Positions 21,891 to 29,071 of a DNA stretch of 35,616 bases are shown here, one piece after another (the stretch's first letter is position 1; each line of letters opens with the position of its first letter). Where the stretch lies: positions 1 to 35,616 of the forward strand of contig DYFB01000088.1 of NCBI GenBank assembly GCA_020725405.1, in the 5' to 3' direction. The translations under genes and the position numbers were made by a program. Below the pieces are notes generated by a model that worked only from the letters and a program-made list of their open reading frames with translations, searched no databases and was not told the DNA's origin. The stretch is from Symbiobacterium sp. Its GTDB lineage: Bacteria; Bacillota; Sulfobacillia; UBA995; UBA9673.

Positions 21891-22871
21891 CTAGAGCGCA
21901 GGGTCTCCTTCGTCCGGAAGGTCCTCACCGACCACGCGGATCTCCGGCTCGAGCCAGACCCCGAACCGCTCGTAGACGGCGTCGCGGACCCTCCGCATGA
22001 GCTCGAGGACGTCGGTCGCGGTGGCCGCTCCCAGGTTGACGACGAAGCCGGCGTGGCGCTCCGAGACCTGCGCGTCGCCCACCCGGAGCCCCCGGCACCC
22101 GCTCGCCTCGATGAGCGTCCCGGCGTAACCGCCGGGGGGCCGCTTGAAAGCGCTTCCCGCGCTCGGGAGGTCGAGCGGCTGGCGGGCCCGACGTCTCTCC
22201 GTGTAATCCTCCTCCCGGCGCCGGATCTCAACCGGGTCACCGGGTTCCAGCCCGAAGCGGGCCGAAAGCACTATCCATCCCTCGCGCTGGGGCCGGCTCG
22301 TGCGATACCCGAAGTCGAGGTCCCGAGCCGACAGGCGCTCCGGCCGACCGCGACCCGGCCCGCCGGGGCGGAAGACGACGGCGGACTCGACGACGTCCCT
22401 CATCTCCCGCTCGTAGGCCCCGGCGTTCATGACGACGGCCCCGCCCACGGTGCCGGGTATCCCCACCGCGAACTCGAGCCCGCTGAGCCCCTTCCGGCCG
22501 CAGTCCCGGGCGAGCTCCGAGAGGGGAACAGCGGCCCCGGCCTCGACCTCCGGGCCTTCATAGCTCACGTCGAGGAACTCTCCGGCGAGCCGGAGGACGA
22601 CACCGCGCATCCCTCCGTCGCGGACAAGGATGTTCGTCCCCCGGCCGAGAAGGAGAAAGGGCGTCCCCGACCGTTCGCAGCACTCGAGGACCGACGAGAG
22701 CTCGGCCGGGCTTTCGACCGTGACTAGGTAGTCCGCCGGGCCCCCGATTCTGAAGGACGTGTGGAGGCTCATCGGAACCTCCCGGAGGATGCGATCGGCC
22801 GGGACGGCGGCCCCAAGACACCGCTCGAGAGCGTCGCGGCAGAGACCGGCGGTTTCCTTGAGACCGGTCAC
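21891..22871 (-). CDS. murB: UDP-N-acetylenolpyruvoylglucosamine reductase
   Basis: The product is 326 residues. It has the FAD-binding segments H-T-S-F-R-I-G-G-P-A-D and L-G-R-G-T-N-I-L-V-R-D-G-G, G-L-E-F-A-V-G-I-P-G-T-V-G-G-A-V-V-M-N-A-G-A-Y, the catalytic Ser240 in P-S-A-G-S-A-F-K-R-P and Glu310 near the end (L-E-P-E-I-R). The S-A-G-S-x-F-K-R-P form is that of type II MurB found in Bacillota. The enzyme reduces UDP-GlcNAc-enolpyruvate to UDP-MurNAc with NADPH in the cytoplasm. GTG start overlapping the rlmD stop by GTGA. Placement behind rlmD is unusual. Confidence 0.95.
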   Translation of the reverse strand: MTGLKETAGLCRDALERCLGAAVPADRILREVPMSLHTSFRIGGPADYLVTVESPAELSSVLECCERSGTPFLLLGRGTNILVRDGGMRGVVLRLAGEFLDVSYEGPEVEAGAAVPLSELARDCGRKGLSGLEFAVGIPGTVGGAVVMNAGAYEREMRDVVESAVVFRPGGPGRGRPERLSARDLDFGYRTSRPQREGWIVLSARFGLEPGDPVEIRRREEDYTERRRARQPLDLPSAGSAFKRPPGGYAGTLIEASGCRGLRVGDAQVSERHAGFVVNLGAATATDVLELMRRVRDAVYERFGVWLEPEIRVVGEDLPDEGDPAL

Positions 22872-24427
22872 CCGTCACTCCCCCTCCCGTGTCCCGGCCC
22901 CGGCCGGCCCCGGCCGGTGGGAATCCTATGTCCGGCGCCGCCGGCGTATCCGGACCTGCCGCTCCGGCCCGAACCGCGCCCGCCGCTCCCGCCCTGACCC
23001 ACCAGCAGGGCGCAGCACTCCACGTGCGTGGTCTGCGGGAACATGTCGACCGGCTGGACTTCGGCCACCCGGTAGCCGGCGTCGTGGAGCACGGAGAGGT
23101 CGCGGGCGAGGGTGGCGGGGTTGCAGGAGACATAGACGATCCGACGGCAGGCGAGGTCGGCCAGGGCCGCCAGGACCTCCGGCTCACAGCCCTTCCGCGG
23201 CGGGTCGAGAACCACGGTGTCGAGCGGCAGGCGGGCGGCGGTCATGTCCCTCAGGACGGCCGCGGCATCACCGCAGACGAAAGCCGCCTTGTCTACCCCG
23301 TTGGCCCTGGCGTTGGCCGCGGCGTCCCGCACGGCCGCTGGATTGGCTTCGATACCGACTATCTCCTTGAGCGAGCCGAGCCGGCTCGCCAGGTATAAGG
23401 CTATCGTCCCCACCCCGCAGTAGACGTCGGCTGCCCGGCGGGCGCCCTCCGCCATCCCGGCCACCACCCCGTAGAGGACCTCGGCCTGCTCCGGCTTCAC
23501 CTGGAAGAACGACGTGGCCGATACCCTGAATTCGAGGTCCCCCAGGCGGTCGGTGATGTAGCCCGGGCCGCTGAGGACGACGTTTCGGGGTCCAAGGATG
23601 ACGTTCGTCCGACGGGTGTTGATGTTCTGAACGACGGTCGTCACCTCCGGGACGACCCGCCGCAGGGCCTCGGCCAGGCGCCGGCCGGCCGGAAAGCGGG
23701 GTTCCGCGGTGACCAGGACGGCCATGGCCTGGCGTCCGTCACGCGAGACCCGGGCCAGGATGTGCCGGAGCAGGCCGCGGCCCGTGTCCTCGTCGTAAGC
23801 GCTGACCCCGTACTCGGAAGCGAGCCTTACCACAGCCGCGAGGATGCGGTTGTTCACCGGGCGCTGAAGGAGACAGGTCTCCACCGGCACGACGTCGTGC
23901 GTGCGCCGGCGGTAGAGCCCGGCCGCCAGACGTCGAGGACCGGGCCGGTCAGGCGACGCCCGGTCCTCCCGGGGCCGGCAGGCGGAAACCACCGGGAACT
24001 GGGCCTTATTCCGGTAGCCCAGGGGCCGTTCGGCCCCAAGACAGGGCCGGACGTCGATCTCGTCAAGCCCTCCGATACGCCGCAGGGCTTCTCTGACCAC
24101 CGAGGTCTTCCATACGAGTTGGGCCGGGTAGGAGAGAGCCAGGAGCTGGCAGCCGCCGCAGAGGCGGGCCACCGGACAGGCAGGCTCGACCCGCTCGGGA
24201 CTGGGCCTCTCAACGCCTGCAAGATCGGCCTCGATGAAGCCGCGTGAAACGCCGGGCCGGGTCACCCTGGCCCGCACCTTCTCTCCCGGTAGGGCTCCGG
24301 GGACGAAGACGGCCACCCCGCGCCACCGCCCGACTCCCTGGCCCTCCACCCCGAGGTTGTCGATGACGAGATCGATGACTTCGCCGGGGGCGGGTGCCCT
24401 GAAACCGTCCGGCTGCCTTCTGGTCAT
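22868..24427 (-). CDS. rlmD: 23S rRNA (uracil-C5)-methyltransferase, RlmD/RumA family
   Basis: The product is 519 residues. An N-terminal TRAM domain (about 12-70) is followed by the iron-sulfur cysteines Cys84, Cys90, Cys93 and Cys185, and a SAM-dependent methyltransferase domain with D-V-Y-C-G-V-G-T-I-A-L-Y-L, D-P-P-R-K-G-C-E and the catalytic Cys435 in Y-V-S-C-N-P-A-T-L-A-R-D-L. Family enzymes methylate U1939 or U747 of 23S rRNA; some Bacillota paralogs (RlmCD) do both. After the usual end (C-A-L-L-V) there is an extra tail of about 40 residues rich in Gly, Arg and Ser. ATG start; first gene of a short operon with murB. Confidence 0.93.
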   Translation of the reverse strand: MTRRQPDGFRAPAPGEVIDLVIDNLGVEGQGVGRWRGVAVFVPGALPGEKVRARVTRPGVSRGFIEADLAGVERPSPERVEPACPVARLCGGCQLLALSYPAQLVWKTSVVREALRRIGGLDEIDVRPCLGAERPLGYRNKAQFPVVSACRPREDRASPDRPGPRRLAAGLYRRRTHDVVPVETCLLQRPVNNRILAAVVRLASEYGVSAYDEDTGRGLLRHILARVSRDGRQAMAVLVTAEPRFPAGRRLAEALRRVVPEVTTVVQNINTRRTNVILGPRNVVLSGPGYITDRLGDLEFRVSATSFFQVKPEQAEVLYGVVAGMAEGARRAADVYCGVGTIALYLASRLGSLKEIVGIEANPAAVRDAAANARANGVDKAAFVCGDAAAVLRDMTAARLPLDTVVLDPPRKGCEPEVLAALADLACRRIVYVSCNPATLARDLSVLHDAGYRVAEVQPVDMFPQTTHVECCALLVGQGGSGGRGSGRSGRSGYAGGAGHRIPTGRGRPGPGHGRGSDG

Positions 24428-24633: not shown

Positions 24634-25083
24634 TTGGTCCGTAGGCTTCTCGGAAGTCTCCTCATCATCCTCGGTCTCGGTCTCATGGTCGTCGGCGTGT
24701 CGACCCCCGTCCTGGCAGGCGTCGGAGCAACGGTGTCCGTCACCTTCAGGGTCCGGCCCTTTCAGCATCTCACCGTGACGGGCGAGCCAGCCGTCGCGGG
24801 CGGGCCGGTCGCGGATGGCGGGGCGGCCGGGCCCACGACCTCGCCCTCGCCGTCCCCGGGGGCCGGGGGTGCGGTCACTCTGAGCGTCATGAGCACCGTC
24901 GAGTACACGCTGTGGAGGACCGTAGCCGCCGTCGGCTCGGAGGCCGCCCCCCGCATCCAGAGCGCAGCGCTGACCAACCCGCTCGGTCAGACCTACATTC
25001 TCCCGGCCGGGTCCCTGCTTCTTGACGAATCGGTCGTGCTCCCGGAGAGGTTCATCTTGATCTATCACGTCGCTCCCCGGTAG
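24634..25083 (+). CDS. Exported small beta-rich protein, diverged paralog of the next gene
   Basis: The frame encodes 149 residues: a basic N-terminus, a hydrophobic signal peptide (about 3-28, ending S-T-P-V-L-A), then V-S-V-T-F-R-V-R-P-F-Q-H-L-T-V. That matches V-S-V-T-F-T-V-P-S-F-Q-N-L-T-L in the next gene almost position by position, and later parts also align (V-E-Y-T-L with V-N-Y-K-L; I-L-I-Y-H-V with A-S-I-M-Y-T-L). The F-G-T-V-x-P-G motif is replaced by a Gly/Ala/Pro-rich stretch. The only possible start is TTG 24634, as an in-frame stop lies 9 bp upstream, and its ribosome site is weak. It may be a poorly expressed or decaying paralog. Function unknown. Confidence 0.6.
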   Translation: MVRRLLGSLLIILGLGLMVVGVSTPVLAGVGATVSVTFRVRPFQHLTVTGEPAVAGGPVADGGAAGPTTSPSPSPGAGGAVTLSVMSTVEYTLWRTVAAVGSEAAPRIQSAALTNPLGQTYILPAGSLLLDESVVLPERFILIYHVAPR

Positions 25084-25097
25084 GAGACGAGGACCGC

Positions 25098-25122
25098 CCG
25101 GCCCCCTCGACCGGGGGGCCGG
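25098..25122 (+). terminator. Hairpin after the first exported-protein gene
   Basis: CCGGCCCCC and GGGGGCCGG pair perfectly around a TCGACCG loop, 15 bp after the stop codon. There is no T-run, so it is a terminator-like or RNA-stabilising hairpin rather than a textbook intrinsic terminator. Confidence 0.5.
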
Positions 25123-25181
25123 ACAGGGCTGATCCCGCAAACCTGGTTGAGAGACCCGTATCTTCCGATGGCTTCTAAGCC

Positions 25182-25210
25182 TTGACAGTGAAGGGTTTGT
25201 CAGCGATACT
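25182..25210 (+). promoter_or_regulatory. Sigma-A promoter of the second exported-protein gene, with an adjacent palindrome
   Basis: A perfect TTGACA (25182-25187) is 17 bp from GATACT (25205-25210). Transcription would start near 25217. A perfect 10-bp palindrome, TTGTATACAA, occupies 25221-25230, right at the start of the transcript, where a bound repressor would block initiation. A run of nine C flanked by GGG follows at 25236-25244. Confidence 0.7.
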
Positions 25211-25327
25211 ATGTCCCGAGTTGTATACAAGCCGGGCCCCCCCCCGGGCCCCGCGAGCTCCTCTGACCAGGCGCCAAGACGACCTGCCAGAGAAGCGGAC
25301 AACCCCGCAGAGAGAGGAGGGACTTAA

Positions 25328-25843
25328 GTGCGCAAGGCCTTCGCAATCGTCCTGGTCGTCGCGGGTCTGGGCATGGTCGCCTTCGGTTTTTCGGCCCTGG
25401 CGTCGGCCGGAACCACGGGTAACGTTTCGGTGACCTTCACCGTCCCGAGCTTCCAGAACCTCACCCTCGATACGACTACCATCCAGTTCGGCACGGTCAA
25501 TCCGGGAACGACGGGCAACACGCCGACCGGACCCACGAACCCGGGCACGGGCAACCCCTATCCCGGTCCGACCATCACGGTCCAGAGCAACGTGAACTAC
25601 AAGCTGAGCTACACCGTTACCGCCGACTTCACCGGGACGGGCAGCTCGCCTCCGACCATCGACATCGGCAATCTCAAGTACAATGGAACGTCCTTCGTCG
25701 TCGGCACGGTGGACATCGTGACCAACGGAACACCCACCGGGGGCACCGACCATCTCTACAACTACACCCTGGACGTCCCCGGGGTAGCTGCGCCTGACGA
25801 CTACTCGGCTTCAATTATGTATACTCTCTCGACGCCCGACTGA
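25328..25843 (+). CDS. Exported surface-type protein with F-G-T-V-x-P-G domain (WxL-like)
   Basis: The product is 171 residues: signal peptide (1-27, ending A-L-A-S-A), then V-S-V-T-F-T-V-P-S-F-Q-N-L, I-Q-F-G-T-V-N-P-G (residues 52-60), a Thr/Gly/Pro/Asn-rich loop, I-T-V-Q-S-N-V-N-Y-K-L-S-Y-T-V, and a closing D-D-Y-S-A-S-I-M-Y-T-L-S. The regular alternation suggests a small all-beta domain with no anchor motif. GTG start with GAGGAGG 7 bp upstream; strong promoter of its own. Similar strand patterns occur in WxL-domain and spore coat U-type proteins; assignment to either is unproven. The neighbour resembles a WxL partner protein, which favours a cell-surface role. Probably the most expressed gene of the island. 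Confidence 0.8.
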   Translation: MRKAFAIVLVVAGLGMVAFGFSALASAGTTGNVSVTFTVPSFQNLTLDTTTIQFGTVNPGTTGNTPTGPTNPGTGNPYPGPTITVQSNVNYKLSYTVTADFTGTGSSPPTIDIGNLKYNGTSFVVGTVDIVTNGTPTGGTDHLYNYTLDVPGVAAPDDYSASIMYTLSTPD

Positions 25844-25887
25844 CCGGCCGGAGGACTTGGGTATCTTCCGGGACGCTTGACGAGCAT

Positions 25888-25939
25888 CCGGTAGGTGACC
25901 TCCCCCGCGCCGACGCCGCCGGCGGGAGGTCACCACCGG
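25888..25939 (+). promoter_or_regulatory. Long perfect-arm hairpin between two exported-protein genes
   Basis: GGTGACCTCCC (25894-25904) pairs with GGGAGGTCACC (25924-25934). The stem extends by CCGGT/ACCGG with one bulged A, giving 16 bp around a 19-nt GC-rich loop. It starts 44 bp after one stop and ends 28 bp before the next GTG, leaving the GGGAGG ribosome site free. There is no U-run. It is likely an RNA processing or stability element, or a partial terminator, lowering expression of the downstream gene. Confidence 0.65.
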
Positions 25940-25967
25940 GTGTCTTCGTCGCAGGGGAGGGAACAAC

Positions 25968-27017
25968 GTGGGCCGGCCATATGGACGTAGCCTCGCGCCT
26001 TTCCTCCTGGCGGGCCTGGTTTTCTCTCTCGTCGCCCCTGCGGTCGGAGCCGCGGCTGAGACCATCGGTCAGGCCGACTCTGGAGAGCGGAGCATCCTCA
26101 GCATCGGGCTCGCCCCCGTCAAGAGCGCCTACGACCTTACCCCCGGGTCCACTCTCACCCTGGTCGCCAGGTTCACCTGCGAGGGCACGGTCCCACTCCG
26201 CGCTCGGGTCAAGTACATGGACGCCCTCCATCACGGCGACAGATTCGAATACCTGGAACCCGGCGGGGAGTTCTGGTCGGCCGGGTCCTGGGTCTCGGTC
26301 GAGCCGGCCGAGTTCCAGGTCGCCCCGGGCGAGTCGCGGGAGCTCCGGGTGACGGTGACCGTCCCACCGGGGACCCCGGACGGGGAGTACTACGCGGCCT
26401 TCTTCGTCGAGACCGTCCCGGCCGGCGGTCCCGGAGCCGAGACGGGGGTCAGCCTCGGCGGGAGCATCGGCTCCCTCATCTGTCTGGCCGTCGGGGAGAA
26501 CATCGGCCGCTCGGCCCGGCTCATCCCCTACGGCGACGTCCCGCGGACCACCACGGGACTCCAGGGCTGGGCCCGTCTCGTGGAGGATGTCCGGTACTGG
26601 TGGCGCTGTCTCGTCATCCGGGGGCGCAACGTCGCACCCCTGGTCGAAGCGCGTCCCCTCAAGGTGTTCGCGCCCATTGAGAACACCAGCGCAGCCCACA
26701 TCCAGCCGAGGGTGACGGCAAGCTTCTACGAGGGCGACGTCCTCCGGCGCCGGGTGACAGTCGAGGGGGAGATAATCCTCCCCCGGCAGGCAAGGGTGAT
26801 CGAACTCCCGTGGACCGACGCTCCGGTCTACGGGCGGTTCCGCTTGGAGCTCGTGATCGAGTACGGAGGCCCGGAGCCCATCCGGGTCGAGCGGGCCTTC
26901 TGGGTCCTGCCCGTCAAGGGTATCCTCGGCCTGATGGCCGTGGCCTTCGGAGTCGGCTACCTGTCAGCCGCGAGCGGGCGCCGCCGGCAGGCGGGGAGGG
27001 CGGCTCAGGGACCGTGA
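25968..27017 (+). CDS. Membrane-anchored exported protein resembling DUF916/DUF3324 WxL-interacting proteins
   Basis: The product is 349 residues: signal peptide (about 8-29), an N-terminal beta domain (44-150) with L-T-P-G-S-T-L-T-L-V-A-R-F-T, S-W-V-S-V-E-P-A-E-F and A-P-G-E-S-R-E-L-R-V-T-V-T-V-P-P-G-T-P-D-G-E-Y, a second beta domain (about 228-312), one membrane helix (314-334) and a short Arg-rich cytoplasmic tail. This order (two Ig-like domains, helix, basic tail) and the P-G-E-S...V-P...G-x-Y pattern are those of DUF916 plus DUF3324 proteins, which partner WxL surface proteins and bind peptidoglycan. GTG start with GGGAGG 7 bp upstream. Similarity is judged by eye; a chaperone-like role is also possible. 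Confidence 0.7.
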   Translation: MGRPYGRSLAPFLLAGLVFSLVAPAVGAAAETIGQADSGERSILSIGLAPVKSAYDLTPGSTLTLVARFTCEGTVPLRARVKYMDALHHGDRFEYLEPGGEFWSAGSWVSVEPAEFQVAPGESRELRVTVTVPPGTPDGEYYAAFFVETVPAGGPGAETGVSLGGSIGSLICLAVGENIGRSARLIPYGDVPRTTTGLQGWARLVEDVRYWWRCLVIRGRNVAPLVEARPLKVFAPIENTSAAHIQPRVTASFYEGDVLRRRVTVEGEIILPRQARVIELPWTDAPVYGRFRLELVIEYGGPEPIRVERAFWVLPVKGILGLMAVAFGVGYLSAASGRRRQAGRAAQGP

Positions 27018-27121
27018 CGGCAAGGTGGCCGGGAAGAGGCCTTGCAGCCTGAACGCCAGCCTCGATGAAGGAGAACGGGTCGGCGGGGGCGGCAGGAGAG
27101 CGCCGGCAGGGAGACGCGGAG

Positions 27122-29071
27122 ATGCGGGTGAGGACGACCGAAAGGAAGGAGACCGGCTCCAGAAAAACGGGCTCCCCGAAAACCCAGTGGCCGGGTCATG
27201 TCTGCCTTATCCTCGGCCTTTTCCTCATCCTCAGCTCGGCCTCCAGTGAGGTCGCCCGGGCTGGACTCGGGACCATAAGCCTGACGTCGATAGAAGCCTA
27301 TAACTGGGATGGGTCCCCCGGGAGCGGCACCGTGGACTTCGGGACCGTCTACCCCGGGAGTCCGGCTGTCGTCTCGCGGGCCCTGGTCTTCAACGTCTCG
27401 AGCGACCTCGAGTGGCGTCTCCGCGGCTGGACGGGCGCGGCCCTGCCCGCCGGCTGCCTTCTCGAGCAGAGGCCGCGGGAGAGCGGCGGCTGGGTCGCCC
27501 TCTCGCCCTCGGGGGCGGTCATCCGCCCGGCCGAGAACCCGTGCCCGGACGGCGGCTCGTTCGAGGACGACCTCCGTCTGACGGTAGACTTCACCCTTTC
27601 CCCCGGGACGTACACCATCGAGCTCCAATACGAGGTATCGTTCACCGACCAGACTCCTCCGGCGGGCACCGTCGTCATCAACGGCGGGGCCGGCTACACC
27701 AACGACCCGGTCGTGACCCTTGACCTCTCAGCTACCGACGATTCCGGTGTCGTCGACTCCGTGTCCTTCTCCGACGACGGGAGCACCTGGTCGGCGTGGC
27801 AGGATTACGCGACCACAGTCAGCTACACCCTGGCCGACCCGGGGGCGGACGGGACGAAGACCGTCTGGGCGCGCTTCAGGGACCGCGCCGGGAACGTGTC
27901 GAGCCCGGCCTCGGACTCGATAATCCTCGACACCGTGCCTCCGGCCATCTCGGAGCTGACCGTCGCGGGCGTGACCTCCACCACAGCCAACATCGCCTGG
28001 CAGACCGACGAGCCCGCCACAAGTCAGGTGAAGTACCGTCCGGACGGGGCGTCCTCCTGGTCGCTCTCGCCCCTCGGCTCCGCCTACGAGCTGAGCCACA
28101 CCGTGAGCCTCGCGGACCTCACCCCGGGGACGAGGTACTTCTACCGCGCCCTTTCCGCCGACCGGGCGGGGAACCTGACCGAGAGCGCGGAGGCGAGCTT
28201 CTGGACGCCCTGCGAGGCCCCCTACCTCAGCGCGAGCGTGACCCAGACGGGCGGGAGCTTCCAGTACCAGGTCAACCTGAGCTGGACGTCCTCGACCAAC
28301 GCCACCGGCTACAAGGTCTATCGCAAGGACGTCTCGACGGGGACCACGACCCTCCTCACGACGACGACGGCGACATCCTACACGGACAACGTGGAGGCCC
28401 GAACCGTCAAGACTCTCGAGTACTGGGTCGCCGCGGTGAACGGGGCCGGGACGGAGACGAGCTCCAACGTTGTGACCGTGACCCTGGGCGGCGACGATGC
28501 CACCCCGCCGGTCCTGACCATAACCTCGGTCACCCCCGGCCAGACCGAGTGCGTGATTACCTGGACGACCGACGAGCCGTCGACCAGCCGGATCGCGTAC
28601 CGGGTCAAGGGCACCGGGACCTACTCCGAGACACCGCTAGACACCACCCTGGTCACCGACCACAGCGTGACCGTGACCGGCCTGACCCAGGACACGACCT
28701 ACGAGTTCTACGCCGTTTCGAGTGACGCGGCCGGGAACACGGGGCAGTCGGACGTTGGCGAGTTCACCACGCTGCCGCCGGGCGTCCCGCCGGCTCCGCA
28801 GAACCTGCGGGTCACCAAGAGGTGGCCGCGCAACCAGTTCGTGACCCTCGCCTGGGACCCGGCGGACACGGCCGTGGAGTACACGGTCTACCGGCGCTAT
28901 CTCAGCGACCCGCCGACAGCCTGGGAGGAGTGCGGCCGGACGTCCGACACCACCATCAAGGTCGGCTTCCTCAACCCGGCGCAGCCGACCTATACCGCCG
29001 AGTACTACGTCACGGCCTGGAACGCGCTCGGAGAGAGCGATCCCTCCAACATCGTGACCGTCGTCCCCTGA
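27122..29071 (+). CDS. Large exported protein: F-G-T-V-x-P-G domain, Ig-like domain and four fibronectin type III domains
   Basis: The product is 649 residues from ATG 27122. A long basic N-region leads into a signal helix (24-47, ending E-V-A-R-A). Residues 50-175 repeat the domain of the preceding small proteins: V-D-F-G-T-V-Y-P-G (71-79), N-V-S-S-D-L-E-W-R-L (containing W-x-L), and P-G-T-Y-T-I-E-L-Q-Y-E-V-S. Then come an Ig-like domain (178-272, T-V-V-I-N-G-G-A-G-Y-T) and four FN3 domains (about 273-365, 366-456, 461-552, 555-649), two with T-D-E-P-x-T-S-x-x-x-Y. No C-terminal anchor or LPxTG. ATG 27065 is an alternative start with a poorer ribosome site. Likely an extracellular adhesive or polysaccharide-contacting protein. 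Confidence 0.85.
   Translation: MRVRTTERKETGSRKTGSPKTQWPGHVCLILGLFLILSSASSEVARAGLGTISLTSIEAYNWDGSPGSGTVDFGTVYPGSPAVVSRALVFNVSSDLEWRLRGWTGAALPAGCLLEQRPRESGGWVALSPSGAVIRPAENPCPDGGSFEDDLRLTVDFTLSPGTYTIELQYEVSFTDQTPPAGTVVINGGAGYTNDPVVTLDLSATDDSGVVDSVSFSDDGSTWSAWQDYATTVSYTLADPGADGTKTVWARFRDRAGNVSSPASDSIILDTVPPAISELTVAGVTSTTANIAWQTDEPATSQVKYRPDGASSWSLSPLGSAYELSHTVSLADLTPGTRYFYRALSADRAGNLTESAEASFWTPCEAPYLSASVTQTGGSFQYQVNLSWTSSTNATGYKVYRKDVSTGTTTLLTTTTATSYTDNVEARTVKTLEYWVAAVNGAGTETSSNVVTVTLGGDDATPPVLTITSVTPGQTECVITWTTDEPSTSRIAYRVKGTGTYSETPLDTTLVTDHSVTVTGLTQDTTYEFYAVSSDAAGNTGQSDVGEFTTLPPGVPPAPQNLRVTKRWPRNQFVTLAWDPADTAVEYTVYRRYLSDPPTAWEECGRTSDTTIKVGFLNPAQPTYTAEYYVTAWNALGESDPSNIVTVVP

Follow-up and report, generated by a model that had tools for sequence, protein, structure and literature searches.

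The locus described here raises the question of whether surface systems built on WxL proteins and WxL-interacting proteins (WxLIPs), which the literature depicts as almost confined to Bacilli, also occur in other classes of bacteria. More than 91% of known WxL sequences fall in Firmicutes, and 99% of those in Bacilli (PMC9772566); the 2006 paper on these genes stated that clostridia are without them. The window, meaning the whole stretch of DNA that was analyzed, comprises positions 1 to 35,616 of contig DYFB01000088.1 (Symbiobacterium sp., assembly GCA_020725405.1; 35,616 nucleotides), and the genes in question, P1 to P4, occupy positions 24634 to 29071 of it. We conclude that this operon is probably a divergent offshoot of the WxL/WxLIP (Csc) surface system, carried by a host that is probably of single-membrane type and lies outside the orders of Bacilli in which WxL is usual. 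The conclusion is built on the observed homology of P2 and P3 to WxL proteins and WxLIPs, on the gene order, and on its conservation.

The locus

As a first-pass annotation of the sequence had claimed, the four genes are consecutive on the plus strand and all of their products appear to be exported: the coordinates matched, and hydropathy gives a signal-like hydrophobic N-terminal stretch for each of P1, P2, P3, and P4. The G+C content at third codon positions is coding-like in all four (0.82 to 0.90). P2, P3, and P4 are adjacent, with gaps of 124 bp (P2-P3) and 47 bp (P3-P4). The features, with their immunoglobulin (Ig)-like and other domains, are as follows.

24634-25083, plus strand: P1, 149 residues, TTG start, weak ribosome-binding site; an exported diverged or partial copy of P2 in which VEYTL (the Y-x-L strand) is retained
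25182-25210, plus strand: promoter-like TTGACA-17-GATACT, 5' of P2; a consensus match only, with 0.3 expected by chance
25328-25843, plus strand: P2, small WxL-like protein, 171 residues; signal peptide and one WxL-like domain
25598-25606, plus strand: first motif of P2, Y91-K-L (W-x-L in most homologues)
25802-25831, plus strand: closing strand of P2, YSASIMYTLS, which corresponds to the second WxL motif
25968-27017, plus strand: P3, WxLIP-like (DUF916/DUF3324-like), 349 residues
26097-26495, plus strand: first beta-sandwich of P3, PGBD (DUF916)-like, about residues 44-176, from model and profile
26649-26906, plus strand: second beta-sandwich of P3, HBD (DUF3324)-like, about residues 228-313, from model and profile
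26913-26999, plus strand: C-terminal transmembrane helix of P3, model residues 316-344, with a basic tail at its end
27065-29071, plus strand: P4, large exported protein, 668 residues (start possibly the ATG at 27122); N-terminal WxL-like domain, then Ig-like and FN3 domains
27263-27649, plus strand: N-terminal WxL-like domain of P4, about residues 67-195
27407-27421, plus strand: P4 motif L-E-W-R-L; LxWxL varies little or not at all among five orthologues
27692-29068, plus strand: Ig-like (Big_13-like) and FN3 domains of P4, from Pfam, presumed surface-exposed

P3, a WxLIP-like partner protein

Comparison of 27 P3-like proteins with 14 canonical WxLIPs, the latter taken from annotated plasmids and from genome G208, gave an hhalign value of 98.9% (E = 2.7e-17) over 237 columns spanning both domains; values of this kind, here and below, are single comparisons, and the argument rests on the controls, which reached at most 0.3% in 40 column shuffles and at most 0.6% with reversed or shuffled profiles. 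The hidden Markov model (HMM) of the window-class P3 proteins finds Lactobacillales WxLIPs with a best E of 4e-8. Conversely, WxLIP Pfam matches are seen in four of eight P3 homologues at E <= 1 (best E, 2e-5), and with PF06030 the homologue in genome G059 reaches 28.1, above the cut-off of 27.3.

The AlphaFold model of P3 (predicted local distance difference test [pLDDT], 71.7) consists of two beta-sandwiches with a helical insert (residues 201-217) between them, followed by a C-terminal helix; by hydropathy, the hydrophobic stretch begins at residue 311 and a basic tail comes after it. The succession that marks a WxLIP, two Ig-like domains in order and then a transmembrane helix with a basic tail, is thus present. 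The best three matches of the model in the PDB are to the Enterococcus faecium WxLIP structures 9i1y and 9i25 (E = 1.9e-11 to 1.2e-10; 14 to 15% identity), the second of which is that WxLIP bound to a long WxL protein. As judged from the profiles, the P3 family is a distant homologue of WxLIP over both domains, and the DUF916-DUF3324-helix-basic-tail layout that had been proposed for the 349-residue protein is borne out by profile-profile comparison, by the PF06030 match in a homologue, and by the top fold matches.

The domain shared by P2 and P4

When 28 P2-like proteins were aligned with 15 canonical WxL proteins, hhalign returned 97.4% (E = 1.6e-11), compared with a maximum of 0.6% in 40 column shuffles; the match extends over 120 columns, beginning with the F-G strand and ending with the closing strand. 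In it the first WxL motif is aligned with the strand V-x-S-N-x-x-[WY]-x-L of the P2 family, and the second with Y-S-A-x-I-x-Y-T; in most P2 homologues the first motif is W-x-[LIV], and the second has Y. The P2 HMM also finds a WxL-like protein of Lactococcus garvieae (E = 1.3e-4). On this profile evidence the P2 family is homologous to canonical WxL domains. The P2 family and the family of P4 N-terminal domains match each other at 97.8 to 98.1%, with reversed or shuffled controls at 1.5% or less.

The first-pass annotation had assigned one domain to three of the proteins. This holds for P2 and P4, in which the motifs that it quoted are present as described; by profile, the P2 family matches WxL domains rather than an unrelated family, and the largest protein does join an E-W-R-L strand to Ig-like and FN3 domains recognized by Pfam. 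For P1 it holds in part. Mature P1 aligns with mature P2 at z = 9.4, with 0 of 500 shuffles as good, but the alignment is confined to the part that begins with the V-S-V-T-F strand and ends with the Y-x-L strand; FGTV is missing, and the second half is shortened and mostly lost. On its own, mature P1 fell short of the family profile at E = 10, and no P1 counterpart was recognized in related loci. P1 is a diverged or decaying copy of P2. In the host genome, P2-like domains were found in no proteins other than P1, P2, and P4, and P3 is single-copy.

Points against the assignment

A number of observations weigh against a WxL/WxLIP assignment. Pfam and NCBIfam gave no WxL-related match for the four window proteins, and Pfam no WxLIP or DUF3324 match either; PF13731 had no match in P1, P2, P4, or nine P2-like members. 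P2 lacks two W-x-L motifs, carrying Y-K-L and Y-T-L, and P4 has W-R-L followed by Y-E-V, so that two W-x-L motifs are not present there either. Compared directly with WxL, the P4 domain scores 1% by hhalign and is linked only via the P2 family; it is N-terminal, not C-terminal, in all five orthologues. In P3, the canonical NQIDKxxxYFDLK is reduced to SAYDL (APVKSAYDL), with only the Y...D-L part retained. The AlphaFold model of P2, made from a five-sequence alignment, has a pLDDT of 37, and the fold was not obtained. Finally, Foldseek template-modeling scores between P3 and WxLIP are low (0.29 to 0.40), and other Ig-like proteins come next in the list of folds at E of about 1e-9; because the scores are low, the fold match only supports the sequence result and does not stand alone.

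A rival reading is that P2, P3, and P4 are generic exported beta proteins of Ig-like or NEW3 type that resemble WxL and WxLIP proteins by convergence. The best direct Pfam match of P3 is the generic NPCBM_assoc/NEW3, below its cut-off, and the P3 model matches numerous Ig-like structures that are unrelated. We nevertheless consider convergence very improbable and largely refuted, as the profile matches take in the two WxLIP domains, in order, as well as the two WxL strands, FN3, reversed, and shuffled profile controls stay below 6%, and a P2-like gene accompanies the P3-like one in 14 of 15 loci that were picked by P3 alone. The profiles show homology, and we rejected an independently invented WxL-like system for that reason; the earlier description of the system as "distant or independent" thus stands in its first half, for P2 and P3, and falls in its second.

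Conservation and spread

P3 was found in nine of the 61 genomes searched, which were those of the host and of 60 relatives; five of the nine, the host included, belong to the same order. In their named versions these genomes are metagenome-assembled genomes (MAGs), which carry the labels Eubacteriales, Bacillota SURF_36, "Symbiobacterium thermophilum" BE2011_68_19, and Firmicutes UBA995. P2, P3, and P4 occur together and in the same order in four same-order relatives, so the cluster is conserved in relatives; best-segment identities there are 37 to 55% for P3, 36 to 50% for P4, and 29 to 37% for P2. Further members of the class retain P2-like and P3-like genes without P4.

Within the class, 15 of 154 genomes have a P3-like protein at 1e-10. 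In a set of 15 loci picked by P3 alone and mapped (L090-L104), the window-class HMM places a P2-like gene near the P3-like one in 14 cases, usually directly upstream; the fifteenth has a small neighboring gene with the motifs by eye. Across the phylum, 72 of 398 genomes have a P3-like match at E <= 1e-5, some of these being multi-repeat or first-domain-only proteins. Related proteins are also found in Cohnella, Embleya, Deinococcus, and an Acidobacteria MAG. PF13731 matches occur in 2 of 199 genomes of the phylum and PF06030 matches in 2 of 151 genomes of the class, and therefore annotation alone would call the system nearly absent. By these homology searches, P2-like/P3-like pairs are widespread and largely unannotated in the phylum, and the earlier statement that WxL systems are known mostly from Lactobacillales understated the spread. 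PF06030 was also above cut-off in a control genome, that of Thermotoga maritima, which represents an Omp85-positive lineage outside Bacilli.

What was known so far is the WxL/WxLIP system of Bacilli; what is added here, as read from sequence comparisons, is a divergent version in another class and a pair common in the phylum. WxL proteins have been tied in the literature to gut hosts and virulence. The presence of the same pair in environmental MAGs and across the phylum suggests a system older and more general than host binding.

Comparison with Csc clusters and proposed mechanism

The known WxL/WxLIP clusters of Lactobacillales and Bacillales (cscA-cscB-cscC; PF06030, PF11797, and PF13731) have been described previously (PMC1534035, PMC9772566, PMC10599100). 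The window operon shares with the canonical Enterococcus mundtii cluster the gene order small WxL, WxLIP, large WxL, and P3 shares with WxLIPs its two Ig-like domains, C-terminal helix, and basic tail. It differs in several respects. The W of the canonical motif is often Y, and the second motif of the P2 family is Y-T-x; the P4 domain is N-terminal, whereas that of canonical large WxL proteins is C-terminal (PMC1534035, PMC10599100); P3 has a helical insert between its domains, unlike 9i1y and 9i25. Unlike csc clusters, the window cluster has no LPxTG protein noted, its proteins lie below Pfam detection, and its host belongs to a different bacterial class.

By analogy with those systems, we infer strand donation, wall binding, and a ligand as follows. 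All of the proteins would be exported by Sec, as their signal-like N-termini suggest. P3 would sit in the cytoplasmic membrane, anchored through its C-terminal helix, with the basic tail on the inner side and its two Ig-like domains displayed outside. The WxL-like domains of P2 and P4, whose sandwich is incomplete, would be completed by a beta strand of P3, as their homology suggests, and P2 and the N-terminal domain of P4 would in this way acquire their fold, be held, and stay at the cell wall, with the Ig/FN3 arm of P4 pointing outward to bind a polymer or another cell. Strand completion by WxLIP has been modelled for E. faecium (PMC10599100); given that model and the solved complex 9i25, we regard strand completion by a membrane-held P3 as the most likely mechanism.

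The C-terminal helix and Omp85

The host encodes Spo0A, and its genome (95% complete) has no Omp85 match; the host is therefore probably single-membraned and able to sporulate, and the label "spore-former" given to it at first is plausible. P3-like proteins are of two kinds: some continue into a hydrophobic helix, which in most cases bears a basic tail, and the others end after the second domain. The helix is present in 14 of 14 Omp85-negative genomes and absent from 23 of 23 Omp85-positive ones. Among the first 23 genomes, it occurs in all 13 without Omp85 and in none of the 10 with Omp85; genome G001, with a hydropathy of 1.56 against the cut of 1.6, was scored helix-present because its chain runs on into the helix. 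Among the further genomes, all 13 helix-less ones have Omp85, seven of them with a longer multi-repeat form of the P3-like protein, and the sole helix-bearing one (G071) is without Omp85. A protein tree over the 37 genomes requires about two helix changes, and so the association is strong but comprises few independent events.

It has been proposed that the helix enters the host cell membrane (PMC10599100), whereas an earlier view has it anchored in the membrane of the bacterium itself (PMC1534035). The complete division of helix-bearing and helix-less proteins by Omp85 speaks against the former idea and supports own-membrane anchoring; it also hints at a relationship to chaperone-usher systems.

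Genome G084 was omitted from the count because its P3-like gene is split, lying in two open reading frames about 3.5 kb apart on the minus strand (L109, 1080-1967 and 5473-6291), apparently interrupted. P3-like versions of 570 to 700 residues, without a membrane helix, are found at L072, L075, L079, L084, L085, L086, and L089; they have two or three P3-profile matches, and come from Omp85-positive genomes of families f96 and f109.

Possible kinship with chaperone-usher systems

In Omp85-positive relatives, the helix-less P3-like gene is often near a large gene, possibly for an outer-membrane protein. A gene of 719 to 1113 residues with ends of CarboxypepD_reg/SdrD_B type lies within a few kilobases in nine of the first ten Omp85-positive loci (the ends of five were tested with Pfam and the others aligned with them; the contig of the tenth locus is too short), and the Acidobacteria locus has a comparable gene of 792 residues. 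Examples are found at L091 (2184-5522), L097 (2988-5930), L098 (8388-11297), L102 (3405-5561), L104 (6176-8827), and L033 (3495-5870); several have NEW3-like N-terminal domains, and the middle is unannotated, with one weak Porin_4 match. The Usher Pfam family had no match in the six large proteins tested, a search of PDB sequences showed no usher homology for the large neighbors, and hhalign was negative in a comparison whose positive control failed too. The large genes are possible candidates for outer-membrane assembly proteins, as their sequences and positions suggest.

As in archaic and alternative chaperone-usher systems (CsuC, CfaA, EcpB), the genes for small beta subunits are accompanied by one for an exported partner with two Ig domains. 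The fold of CsuC is matched by the P3 model at E = 4e-9, and the P3 family reaches 78.8% by hhalign against Escherichia coli EcpB, which is not significant by usual cut-offs, and only 7.8% against the FimC/YadV chaperones. We regard the link as suggestive only. A second rival reading is that P2-like proteins, rather than being parts of wall-binding platforms, are subunits of a filament that grows by donor-strand exchange; P3 would then serve as its chaperone or as the base of assembly, and P4 would be the tip adhesin. Tandem small subunits around the P3-like gene at many loci, and the matches of the P3 model to CsuC, CfaA, and EcpB, fit this reading. A further point is TLP-2 (9ikk), which has a V-S-S-x-x-x-W-x-L stretch similar to that of P2, at an E of 0.23 that is not significant. 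The window, however, has one P2 gene only, plus the diverged P1, and no usher or sortase gene was recognized beside its operon. We therefore judge filament assembly unlikely for this locus, though less so than convergence, and prefer the WxL/WxLIP reading. TLP-2 was the sole PDB sequence match of the P2 profile; its entry contains 16 chains, and the stretch in question aligns to the WxL strand. Searches of PDB sequences with P2 and P3 gave no significant match.

Both sets of observations could be accommodated in a broader scheme, which we offer as a tentative possibility. WxL/WxLIP may be the single-membrane branch of an old donor-strand assembly system, whose two-membrane branch would share the subunits and a helix-less partner, would add a large outer-membrane protein, and would occur in diderm Firmicutes, Acidobacteria, and perhaps Deinococcus. 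The window operon, which unlike chaperone-usher systems has no usher or comparable large gene beside it, in a host without an Omp85 match, would belong to the single-membrane branch, yet its sequences would be nearer to those of the two-membrane branch than the lactobacillar ones. The possible tie makes a common origin of WxL/WxLIP and chaperone-usher systems directly testable.

Promoter and flanking gene

The site at 25182-25210 is the only sigma-70-like one found in the region, and it has P2, P3, and P4 behind it and P1 upstream. Its vegetative type bears on whether the system belongs to the spore (coat or exosporium) and not to a vegetative surface complex. Spo0A is present in the host and in most genomes that carry the pair, as would be expected of a spore-related system, but it is common to the group, and canonical WxL systems occur in lactobacilli, which do not sporulate; we find a role in the spore very improbable and keep to a vegetative WxL/WxLIP surface complex.

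Divergent from the operon, at 22868-24427, lies a gene of 519 residues that by eye encodes an RNA methyltransferase of RlmD/TrmA type, and it seemingly keeps this position in same-family loci (L010 and L011).

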